Positions 228-3,365 of a DNA stretch of 64,000 nucleotides are shown here, in pieces. The translations under genes and the position numbers were made by a program. The stretch covers positions 1 through 64,000 of the forward strand of contig NZ_CAJATU010000089.1 of NCBI RefSeq assembly GCF_903944925.1. The letters are read 5' to 3'. The stretch is from an uncultured Rhodopila sp. (GTDB lineage Bacteria > Pseudomonadota > Alphaproteobacteria > Acetobacterales > Acetobacteraceae). The notes under the pieces were generated by a model that was not told the origin of the DNA, ran no database searches, and worked only from the letters and a program-made list of their open reading frames with translations. The number at the start of each line of letters is the position of its first letter. The stretch's first letter is position 1.

Positions 228-614
228 ATGATGGTTCTTGAACATATCACCTGGAGCTTTGACGAGCCGGGCCTGTTGGACCGACTGGAAACCGCAGAAG
301 GCGCAATGCTGGACGAAATCCCCTTCGGCGTCGTGGCAATGACGACCGATGGTATAGTAACAGGCTACAATACCGCGGAAAGCTGTTTGTCGGGCTTGTC
401 GCCGGCAAAGGTCATCGGGCGGCACTTCTTCTCCGCCGTGGCGCCATGCACCAACAATTTCATGGTGGCATACCGGTTCGAAACCGAACCCGGGTTGGAC
501 GCCGTCATCGACTATGTCTTCACCCTGAAGATGCAACCGAAAAAAGTGCGGCTGAGGTTGCTGAAGCAGCCCGGACGGCGGCGCATGTATCTTGCCGTGC
601 AACCGTGTCCGTAG
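228..614 (+). CDS. pyp: Photoactive yellow protein (PYP) homologue, blue-light sensor
   Basis: This 128-residue single PAS-domain protein matches the length (125 aa) and layout of Halorhodospira PYP. Known PYPs bind p-coumaric acid through a thioester to one Cys and cycle after absorbing blue light. The chromophore Cys lies in VAPCT (Cys74, codon 447-449). The phenolate-binding Tyr and Glu are kept in GYNTAES (Tyr47, Glu51). The VIG..FF..VAPCT block aligns without gaps. The usual Thr50 is Ser55 here, Arg52 is Leu57, and the Tyr94 position appears to be Leu. The ATG at 228 follows AAGGAG at 215-220 by 7 nt, which decides the start. The diguanylate cyclase begins 14 bp after the stop, so a shared transcript is likely. 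Genes for chromophore synthesis (tyrosine ammonia-lyase, coumarate-CoA ligase) are not in the window. Identity as a PYP-family protein is strong; photoactivity is inferred. Confidence 0.85.
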   Translation: MMVLEHITWSFDEPGLLDRLETAEGAMLDEIPFGVVAMTTDGIVTGYNTAESCLSGLSPAKVIGRHFFSAVAPCTNNFMVAYRFETEPGLDAVIDYVFTLKMQPKKVRLRLLKQPGRRRMYLAVQPCP

Positions 615-628
615 ACGGCCCGGCATCG

Positions 629-1867
629 ATGGAGGAACTGCTTCAGTTTCTCTACCTGATGCCCGTAGGCGTCGTGAAGTTCGCAGCCAGCGGCGCCGTC
701 GAGCTGATGAATCCCATGGCCTCGGCACTGCTCATGCCGCTGGCGCCGGACGGCTCGCTGCACGACATCTACACCACCCTCTCACCCCTGGCGCCGGACC
801 TGAAGCGGCGGGTGCAGCGATTTCCCGGACAGACCGGGATCATAATCGACCAGCGCCAACTGGAACTGCCACAGCCGGGCGGCAAACCGCGCACGTTGTC
901 GCTGACCGTCAACCGCGTCAGCGACGCTGTCTTCATGGCAGTGCTGAAGGATGTAACCAAGATCAAGGAACAACAGCGCAAGCTGTTCGCCGATCAACAG
1001 CGGTTCCGGGCGATTTTCGATAACATACGCGATTATGCGATCTACACGATCACGCTGAACGGCATCATCGAGGAGTGGAACCAATCGCTGCAGCGCTATG
1101 CCGGCTGGACGGCGCCCGATATCGAACGCCAGAGCATTCGCATGTTATTCCCGCCGGGCGATCCCGGACTACTGCGGCTCGACAAATTCCTGTCTGAAGC
1201 GGAACGCACGGGATCTGTCGAGATCGAAGGCCCGCAGCGAAAACGCGACGGCTCGAGTCTATGGGCCGATACGGTCATAACCGCATTGCCGGACGAAACC
1301 GGCAGCGTGCGCGGCTTCGTCGTGGTGTCACGCGACATGACGGAGCGCAAGCGGTTCGAGGACGACCTCAAGCTGCTCGCCACCATCGACCCTCTTACCG
1401 GTGCAGACAACCGCCGCCAGGGGGAACTCCATCTTGCGGTCGAATTCGCCCGGTATACGCGCGATGGACAAATCTTCGCCGTGCTGATGCTCGACATCGA
1501 CCATTTCAAGACGATCAACGATCGTCTGGGTCATGCCGCGGGCGATGCGGTACTCCGCGGACTGGTGCAGACCTGCAAGGCAACGGTACGGGCGGTCGAT
1601 GCGGTCGCCCGATGGGGCGGCGAGGAATTCCTCATCGTCTTGCCGGGCACCGACGCGGCAACGGCCATGGTGGTGGCGGAGCGTTTGCGGGTTGAGATCG
1701 CGGCGATGCATGTCGCCGTCCCCGGCGGGCCATCCACGCGACTGACCGTCAGCATCGGCGTTGCCGAGCCCGCGGGCGAGGATGCCAATGAATTGCTGCG
1801 CCGCGCGGACATGGCCCTTTATGCCGCCAAGGCTGGCGGCCGCAACCGGGTGATACGGGCTACATAG
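629..1867 (+). CDS. PAS-PAS-GGDEF diguanylate cyclase
   Basis: The 412-residue soluble protein has a PAS-like domain (about 1-115), a short helical linker, a second PAS (about 125-245, ending SRDMTERK as PAS-PAC modules do) and a GGDEF domain (about 250-412). The active-site motif is intact as GGEEF at 330-334. A product-inhibition site RAVD (321-324) lies exactly five residues upstream of it, so an active, feedback-inhibited c-di-GMP synthase is expected. No transmembrane segment is seen. The start is uncertain: ATG 629 is used, but an in-frame GTG at 605 would overlap the PYP stop and give translational coupling. No strong ribosome site precedes either. Its place right behind the PYP gene suggests PYP modulates its activity; that is an inference. 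Confidence 0.88.
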   Translation: MEELLQFLYLMPVGVVKFAASGAVELMNPMASALLMPLAPDGSLHDIYTTLSPLAPDLKRRVQRFPGQTGIIIDQRQLELPQPGGKPRTLSLTVNRVSDAVFMAVLKDVTKIKEQQRKLFADQQRFRAIFDNIRDYAIYTITLNGIIEEWNQSLQRYAGWTAPDIERQSIRMLFPPGDPGLLRLDKFLSEAERTGSVEIEGPQRKRDGSSLWADTVITALPDETGSVRGFVVVSRDMTERKRFEDDLKLLATIDPLTGADNRRQGELHLAVEFARYTRDGQIFAVLMLDIDHFKTINDRLGHAAGDAVLRGLVQTCKATVRAVDAVARWGGEEFLIVLPGTDAATAMVVAERLRVEIAAMHVAVPGGPSTRLTVSIGVAEPAGEDANELLRRADMALYAAKAGGRNRVIRAT

Positions 1868-2000: not shown

Positions 2001-2684
2001 ATGATCAACAAGATCGTCCAAACCATGGCTGAGACCATGAGCGGCATCAAGGACGACTCGGTCGTCCTGCTCGGCGGCTTCGGTGCCGTCGGCCAGCCCA
2101 ATGCCCTGATCGAGGGCCTGATCGAGCAAGGCGCCAAGGACCTCACCGTCGCCGCCAACAACGCAGGAGTCGGGCATGTCGGCCTTGCCCGGCTGATGGA
2201 ACTGGGGCGCGTCCGCAAGATCATCTGCTCGTTCCCGCGCAGCTCCGACCCCGTGGTGTTCGAGACGCTGTATCGCGCCGGCAAGATCGAACTGGAGATT
2301 GTCCCGCAAGGTACCTTGGCCGAGCGGATGCGCGCTGCCGGCGCCGGGGTGCCCGCCTTCTTCACCGCCACCGGTGTCGGCACCAAAATGGCCCTCGGCA
2401 AGGAGCACCGGGACATCGGCGGCCGCACCTACATCCTCGAGCACGCGCTGAAGGGCGATGTCGGGCTGGTGGAGGCGTGGGAAGCCGATCGCTGGGGGAA
2501 TCTGACGTTCAAGCAGGCCGGACGGAATTTCAATCCGGTGGTCGCCATGGCCTCCGACCTGACGCTGGTGCAGGCGCAGCATATTCGTGCGCTGGGCGAG
2601 ATCGACCCCGACCACATCGTCACCCCCGGGATTTTCGTCAACCGCGTCCTGCACGTGCCCTACGGCGATCCGGCCGGCTTCTGA
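2001..2684 (+). CDS. pcaI: 3-oxoacid/3-oxoadipate CoA-transferase, subunit A
   Basis: The 227-residue protein matches the alpha subunit of class I CoA-transferases along its length: a GGFG..G.P..LI start region, the NNAG segment, CSFPR and VPQGTLAERMRAAG. Its partner moves CoA from succinyl-CoA to a 3-oxoacid such as 3-oxoadipate or acetoacetate in the cytoplasm. By sequence it looks closer to PcaI than to ScoA, but the true substrate cannot be decided and no other protocatechuate-pathway genes are nearby. The start is the ATG that begins MINKIVQTMAE, as in homologues. The subunit B gene follows 18 bp later on the same strand. Confidence 0.85.
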   Translation: MINKIVQTMAETMSGIKDDSVVLLGGFGAVGQPNALIEGLIEQGAKDLTVAANNAGVGHVGLARLMELGRVRKIICSFPRSSDPVVFETLYRAGKIELEIVPQGTLAERMRAAGAGVPAFFTATGVGTKMALGKEHRDIGGRTYILEHALKGDVGLVEAWEADRWGNLTFKQAGRNFNPVVAMASDLTLVQAQHIRALGEIDPDHIVTPGIFVNRVLHVPYGDPAGF

Positions 2685-2702
2685 TCACAGGGAGACGCAA
2701 GC

Positions 2703-3365
2703 ATGTCCGCAACAACCGCCGCCTTCAAGCCGTTCACCCGCCAGCAGATGGCGCAGCGCGCCGCCGCCGACATCCCGGAGGGTTGGTATGTCAATCTCGG
2801 CATCGGCATCCCGACCCTGGTCGCAGACTATGTGCCGATGGACCGCGAGGTGATCTTCCACTCGGAGAACGGTGTGCTTGGCATGGGTCCGGCGCCTGAA
2901 AAGGACAAGATCGAGCCGTGGCTGATCAACGCCGGCAAGCAGTATGTCACGCTGCGGACGGGCGGCAGCTACTGCCACCATGCCGACAGCTTCGCAATGA
3001 TCCGTGGCGGGCATCTGGATCTGTGCGTGCTGGGTGCGTTCCAGGTCGCCGATAACGGCGACATCGCCAACTGGGCGACCAGCGACAACGACAGCGCCCC
3101 CGCCGTCGGCGGCGCGATGGACCTGGCCACCGGGGCGAGGCGGCTGTGGGTGCTGATGGAGCACACGGCGAAGGACGGAACGCCGAAGCTGGTGACGCGC
3201 TGCACCTACCCGCTGACCGCGCCGGGCGCGGTGAAGCGGATCTACACCAACCTGGCGACGATCGACGTGACGGAGCGGGGCTTCGTCGTTCTGGACATCG
3301 CTCCGGGCCTCAGTCTGGCAGACCTGCAGGCGCGGACGGAGGCAAAGCTGCATCTGCCGGGGTGA
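2703..3365 (+). CDS. pcaJ: 3-oxoacid/3-oxoadipate CoA-transferase, subunit B
   Basis: The 220-residue beta subunit carries the catalytic Glu in SENGVLGMGPAP (about 58-69), the family signature; this Glu forms the glutamyl-CoA intermediate. The N-terminal YVNLGIGIPTLVADY and the C-terminal GFVVLDIAPG are also typical. The start ATG is preceded by CAGGGAGACGCA, a good ribosome site. It forms a two-gene operon with subunit A and is followed by a palindromic repeat that could end transcription. PcaJ and ScoB are hard to separate by eye, so the symbol is tentative. Confidence 0.85.
   Translation: MSATTAAFKPFTRQQMAQRAAADIPEGWYVNLGIGIPTLVADYVPMDREVIFHSENGVLGMGPAPEKDKIEPWLINAGKQYVTLRTGGSYCHHADSFAMIRGGHLDLCVLGAFQVADNGDIANWATSDNDSAPAVGGAMDLATGARRLWVLMEHTAKDGTPKLVTRCTYPLTAPGAVKRIYTNLATIDVTERGFVVLDIAPGLSLADLQARTEAKLHLPG

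Follow-up and report, generated by a model that had tools for sequence, protein, structure and literature searches.

A PAS domain that accompanies one branch of stand-alone photoactive yellow proteins in Rhodopila and other bacteria

Photoactive yellow protein (PYP) is among the best studied photoreceptors. The signaling partner, or the signal chain, of its single-domain form has been stated to be unknown in 2022, 2025 and 2026 (PMC9664959, PMC12826048, PMC13250908). The PYP of Idiomarina loihiensis has been linked to the lowering of biofilm by blue light (van der Horst 2009, as cited in PMC12826048 and PMC9664959), PYPs of clade C are "often found adjacent" to GGDEF genes (Xing 2022, PMC9664959), and GGDEF/EAL proteins are encoded in 29 of 113 pyp operons (Dohmen 2025, PMC12826048). 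Because stand-alone PYPs beside GGDEF genes were already published in 2022 and 2025, the pair of a clade C PYP with a GGDEF gene alone is a known arrangement. The consulted sections of these two papers contain no description of a domain shared by the neighboring proteins, and a literature search, screened mostly without full texts, found no conserved partner domain for PYP described.

The window analyzed here is a stretch of 64,000 nucleotides at the start of a contig (NZ_CAJATU010000089.1) from an uncultured Rhodopila sp. The original prediction, made from its sequence, was that a PYP gene and a cyclase gene may form a stand-alone light-to-c-di-GMP module; the pairing of the genes turned out to be conserved far beyond the genus, at the level of one cyclase domain, and not to be new, having been published already (PMC9664959, PMC12826048). 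What is new is that the N-terminal PAS domain of the cyclase (named NPAS here) is the conserved part that goes with one PYP branch, while the outputs behind it are exchanged.

The PYP gene and the cyclase gene

The window starts at the first base of contig C89 (7.0 Mb assembly, 99% complete), so that only 227 bp are visible 5' of the PYP gene. In a related metagenome-assembled genome (G007), the contig (C98; loci L002 and L014) ends 182 bp before its PYP, its upstream sequence being similar to positions 1-227 of the window, and a repeat upstream of PYP may have broken both assemblies. The PYP gene lies on the plus strand at 228-614 (128 amino acids, stop included) and is preceded, 7 nt 5' of its ATG, by AAGGAG (215-220), a likely ribosome-binding site. 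The NCBIfam model TIGR02373 matches its product at 4.5e-23 with 81.7 bits, under the curated (equivalog) cut-off of 143.05; this model recovers only 20% of the PYP homologues that BLAST finds (PMC9664959). The closest solved structures are the PYP domain of Ppr (1mzu, 9.4e-17) and entries of Halorhodospira halophila PYP. As predicted, the chromophore-site residues are kept: in the alignment, Tyr47 (codon 366-368), Glu51 (378-380) and Cys74 (447-449) correspond to Tyr42, Glu46 and Cys69 of the H. halophila protein, the last being the residue of chromophore attachment and the one that defines the family (PMC9664959). The residue at position 50 is Ser and that at 52 is Leu; the consensus of the family at 52 is likewise Leu, and absorption near 432-434 nm is reported for the two PYPs with Ser50 that have been studied (PMC12826048).

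Clade C has been described as having lost Phe92 and Trp119 and kept Met100, with Phe96 not conserved (PMC9664959). The window PYP has Ile for Phe92, Tyr for Trp119 and a retained Met100; at site 96 it carries Phe, and the PYPs paired with an NPAS gene carry Leu (33 of 56) or Phe (23 of 56). In a tree of 100 PYPs the window sequence groups within a 40-row branch that is separate from the Halorhodospira-like and the Leptospira/Salinibacter rows. On these residues and this tree, as distinct from the published one, the window PYP would belong to clade C.

The cyclase gene follows on the same strand and ends at 1867. The spacing of 14 bp given in the original prediction is correct for a start at ATG 629, counted from the PYP stop at 614; GTG 605, in frame and overlapping the PYP stop by 10 bp, is judged from the sequences at least as likely a start, because in the relative with 85% identity an in-frame ATG occupies this overlap position. 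For 23 of 24 downstream partners an in-frame start is present between -30 and +60 bp relative to the PYP stop, and 12 of these 23 overlap. An open frame running from 446 enters the PYP gene in a different frame, so an apparent fusion was rejected as an artefact, the true starts being 605 or 629. No phytochrome family match was found by Pfam in the window pair, which consists of two separate genes and not of a Ppd-type fusion.

Three domains are distinguished in the cyclase, all encoded on the plus strand: NPAS (629-1003), a second PAS domain (1001-1354; PF13426, PF00989, PF08448) and GGDEF (1379-1849; PF00990, 9.5e-44), the latter with the product-inhibition site RxxD as RAVD (1589-1600) and the active-site motif as GGEEF (1616-1630), both intact as had been claimed. 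GG[DE]EF is present in all 16 aligned partners and RxxD in 11 of them, the R. globiformis partner lacking it. Pfam detects a single PAS domain, at about residues 125-242, and gives no match for NPAS in the window at 0.01; among 30 NPAS members it found PAS_8 in two and PAS_4 in one. The predicted PAS-PAS-GGDEF architecture nevertheless stands, because the AlphaFold2 model of the first ~125 residues is a PAS fold (mean pLDDT 95), for which Foldseek returned the PAS domains of WalK, NifL, DosP, FlrB and FixL. The model of the cyclase was matched to 8c05, a LOV-activated diguanylate cyclase. Behind the cyclase, at 2001-3365, lie genes for 3-oxoacid CoA-transferase subunits A and B (TIGR02429 and TIGR02428, both over cut-off), an enzyme that carries out a step of aromatic or ketone-body metabolism.

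Chromophore site and chromophore supply

Among paired PYPs, Cys69 is present in 56 of 56, Tyr42 in 55 and Glu46 in 54, and the three residues are retained in all three Rhodopila genomes that have the pair. Genes for synthesis of the chromophore, for which the original prediction had looked to the full genome, were not found there, an outcome that it had itself named as speaking against it. All three genomes, the window's included, lack PF00221, the family of aromatic amino-acid lyases; the family was present in 17 of 30 genomes searched, a presence that proves little because it also holds histidine lyases. The PYP-type coumarate ligase (TIGR02372 at 1e-40) was detected in 7 of 24 genomes, the three from Rhodopila not among them; a candidate for a dedicated ligase in the window's genome, the best TIGR02372 match (96.8 bits, L012), was rejected as far under the cut-off, and the ligase of Indioceanicola used as query gave just a weak match of 29% in G007. 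The window's genome has 27 AMP-binding enzymes, and naming ten of them with NCBIfam yielded no coumarate or feruloyl ligase at E 1e-100. The lack of both a PF00221 lyase and a PYP-type ligase in the three paired genomes counts against the signaling scheme proposed below.

From these absences it could be argued that the Rhodopila PYP is no longer a light sensor, and that, free of chromophore or with another ligand, it regulates the cyclase either constantly or chemically. We regard this as a real but minority possibility, since the three chromophore-site residues are as well kept in Rhodopila as in the other paired PYPs, plant matter could be a source of p-coumarate, which a different one of the AMP-binding enzymes could activate, and published pyp operons themselves contain lyase genes in only seven cases and ligase genes in 42 (PMC12826048). 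In Rhodopila the PYP would either be loaded with outside p-coumarate by way of another ligase or have no chromophore at all, and a light-competent PYP in this very organism has lower odds than coupling of PYP and cyclase through NPAS.

In other bacteria the module adjoins chromophore genes, and this arrangement supports the view that p-coumarate is the chromophore used by this branch of PYPs. Within 37 loci compared, six have both the ligase and a lyase homolog (Indioceanicola L096, Glaciimonas L033 and L040, Salinibius L035, Alteromonas L036 and L038) and five the ligase only (Caballeronia L095, L097 and L099, Edaphobacter L016, and L019). On the Indioceanicola profundi plasmid (L096, 127-5272), the order is a classical pyp, the coumarate ligase, the lyase, a second PYP annotated as hypothetical, and an NPAS-GGDEF gene.

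NPAS across PYP loci, plasmids and genomes

When the window PYP was compared with 98 relatives, seven had a match at 1e-10, and three of these (the window's own genome, G007 and R. globiformis, G029) have the PYP-GGDEF pair. The conservation of the pairing, which the original prediction had set as a check, holds both here, in the two other genus-sample genomes with a close PYP (85% and 65% identity), and in wider collections. A further PYP-like gene of R. globiformis (L009, 1477-1863) is divergent and lies in a locus without NPAS.

A PYP search of genome contigs was carried out in which the best 80 of 239 relatives were retained as loci; their record titles span several phyla, and many are metagenome bins with unchecked labels. 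Among the best 31 of these (L014-L044), an NPAS gene, recognized by profile, stands beside PYP in 29, the two misses being L034, in which the contig ends 100 bp after PYP, and L043, which has PYPs and no NPAS. In the next 49, NPAS appears only in L075 and L090, more than 2 kb from PYP. In the tree of 100 PYPs, an inference from few columns by a quick search, the 39 NPAS-adjacent PYPs make up one side of one branch (SH-aLRT 96), and the NPAS label needs a single change, a value that none of 500 shuffles attained. Sixty rows were labeled as without adjacent NPAS, L075 and L090 being counted there, and one (L034) was left unlabeled; the tree left out L042 (truncated) and L055 (wrong frame), and took in 9 of the 30 loci L100-L129. 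In L043 (5701-6977), two neighboring open frames have, by eye, a MerR-type-looking DNA-binding start followed by PYP, and are possible light-regulated transcription factors.

Plasmids gave a similar result. PYP was found in 13 of 72,556 plasmid records and NPAS in 11, all of them within the 13 and each beside PYP; in eight of the 11 pairs the coordinates place NPAS 37-81 bp behind PYP, and the other three were read from annotation. The two plasmid PYPs without NPAS are a distant one from Niveispirillum and one from Comamonadaceae OTU4NAUVB1 (L098), which scores as this clade-C-like type yet has no NPAS in 8.3 kb and is a true exception. PYP genes of this type are annotated as 'phosphonate transporter' in the plasmid records H1, H2, H4, H5 and H6.

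The third collection comprised 294 genomes of the family of a Glaciimonas genome (G462), which we take to be the Burkholderiaceae. NPAS was found in 60 of them, PYP in 59, and both in 59. Behind 62 of 79 PYPs, NPAS follows on the same strand at a distance of 41-96 bp; these account for 62 of the 116 NPAS, another 47 being a second NPAS gene within 2.5 kb behind PYP, so that 109 of 116 lie within that distance and seven stand apart, including that of G542, a genome with no PYP match. Eleven of the 17 family PYPs without NPAS were inspected (ten fetched and one in L181), and all 11 are of another PYP type with a coumarate ligase gene next to and behind it.

PYP and NPAS also vary together in the comparison of tree congruence that the original prediction had suggested as a check. 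Over 26 pairs, one per locus, taken from the 31 of the loci and the window after near copies and the truncated L042 had been dropped, their tree distances correlate with r 0.62 and their plain distances with r 0.67, values reached in none of 5000 permutations; for the 17 least similar pairs r is 0.46 and 0.49, reached in 10 and 1 of 5000 permutations. The groupings of the two conflict for L023, L027 and L031.

What follows NPAS is variable. According to Pfam, the window has GGDEF, L030 and the second gene of L033 have GGDEF-EAL, L024, L027 and L041 have HATPase, L031 has HisKA-HATPase and L044 has a hybrid kinase, while L036 has no further domain, L075 has Hpt-HATPase and the first partner in L019 has PAS without GGDEF. 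The NPAS gene lies upstream of PYP in L035, L036 and L038, and many operons of one family contain a single PYP followed by both an NPAS-cyclase and an NPAS-GGDEF-EAL enzyme. L019 (128-3506) is a tandem duo of PYP-NPAS pairs, in the first of which the partner has PAS and no Pfam match to GGDEF; L103 and L122 have two NPAS domains in one open frame behind PYP; and in L075 (8802-10637) and L090 (3056-4825), NPAS precedes a CheA-like protein and is roughly 2 kb downstream of a PYP that belongs to a different branch, the CheA-like call being based on Pfam (Hpt, HATPase) for L075 and made by eye for L090. On inspection by eye, the loci contained no natural PYP-NPAS fusion.

This constancy of one domain while the outputs behind it change is the stronger argument against a reading in which the operon is shared only for joint expression, PYP having another target and NPAS sensing a ligand of its own. 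That reading, which we hold to be unlikely, draws on the likeness of the NPAS fold to cofactor- or ligand-binding PAS domains and on the close linkage and tree correlation, which are also expected from two genes merely moving as one operon. It draws as well on NPAS-like-EAL proteins without PYP: six genus-sample genomes carry an NPAS-like protein (by profile) and no PYP match at 1e-10 (by a single-sequence query), so the domain, or one closely related to it, is not confined to genomes with PYP. The three of these that were fetched (L132, L133 and L134, from G028, G026 and G003) score 97.9-100.7 bits, all end in EAL and have no PYP in the locus. Against it stands also the rarity of NPAS, which was detected at 1e-10 in 1 of 386 class-sample genomes and 2 of 397 phylum-sample genomes, with 11-15 candidates scored per genome in these large-sample searches; the window's genome is in both samples and the second hit is a PYP genome. 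On the same rarity, and within that scoring limit, the idea that NPAS is just a common variant of PAS was rejected. That the pair stands together by chance, or only locally, can be dismissed, since both other genomes with a close PYP keep the pair and the counts from three separate collections (genome contigs, plasmids and family genomes) refute it.

Proposed signaling and comparison with known systems

We consider it fairly probable, from gene neighborhoods and comparative sequence data, that these PYPs signal by docking on NPAS and that PYP and cyclase are functionally coupled through this domain; binding, light control and the direction of the effect are what we infer, together with chromophore loading in this organism. 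PYP and cyclase would be blue-light sensor and effector, two separate proteins whose translation from a shared transcript is coupled. With p-coumarate held on Cys74, light would drive the usual PYP photocycle, and the light state would alter the seating of PYP on the NPAS domain of the next protein. The change would be relayed through the NPAS-PAS helices and would switch the GGDEF dimer, so that c-di-GMP output would track blue light. NPAS would be in this way a dedicated docking domain for this PYP branch; elsewhere NPAS bears GGDEF-EAL or kinase outputs.

A bolder generalization, which we put forward tentatively and hold to be doubtful as a whole, is that an entire branch of stand-alone PYPs could plug into NPAS as its general receptor. 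An evolutionary exchange of the outputs behind NPAS would then rewire blue light to the making or the breakdown of c-di-GMP or to phosphorylation, a single PYP could simultaneously drive a cyclase and a GGDEF-EAL enzyme of the same operon, and in Rhodopila PYP would be armed only by p-coumarate from outside. If so, the Rhodopila sensor would report light and plant phenolics together. The presence of NPAS in many lineages with differing outputs provides a concrete candidate partner, and a simple binding test, for stand-alone PYP; the case of H. halophila is not settled by it, since its PYP is in another branch and has no NPAS neighbors in the sample.

As in the systems of Xing 2022 and Dohmen 2025, the window has a single-domain PYP followed by the gene of a c-di-GMP enzyme, with Tyr42, Glu46 and Cys69 kept, Phe92 and Trp119 lost and Met100 kept (PMC9664959, PMC12826048), but it retains Phe96, as do 23 of the 56 paired PYPs. 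The system of Idiomarina loihiensis is similar in that a stand-alone PYP is thought to act on an adjacent GGDEF protein, and differs in that its PYP belongs to clade A (PMC9664959). In the Ppr/Ppd proteins (PYP-phytochrome-kinase or -GGDEF-EAL fusions), PYP is also linked to a kinase or GGDEF output, although in a single chain with a phytochrome, whereas the window has two proteins and no phytochrome. The LOV-activated cyclase 8c05 likewise places a blue-light sensor before a PAS/coil-GGDEF architecture, but its sensor is fused in the same chain and uses a flavin chromophore. The nearest working analog is PapB-PapA of Rhodopseudomonas palustris, in which a short blue-light receptor governs a separate c-di-GMP enzyme through a protein complex, as would be the case here, and lowers biofilm; its receptor is a BLUF protein with flavin, and its target a solo EAL protein (PMC8846402).
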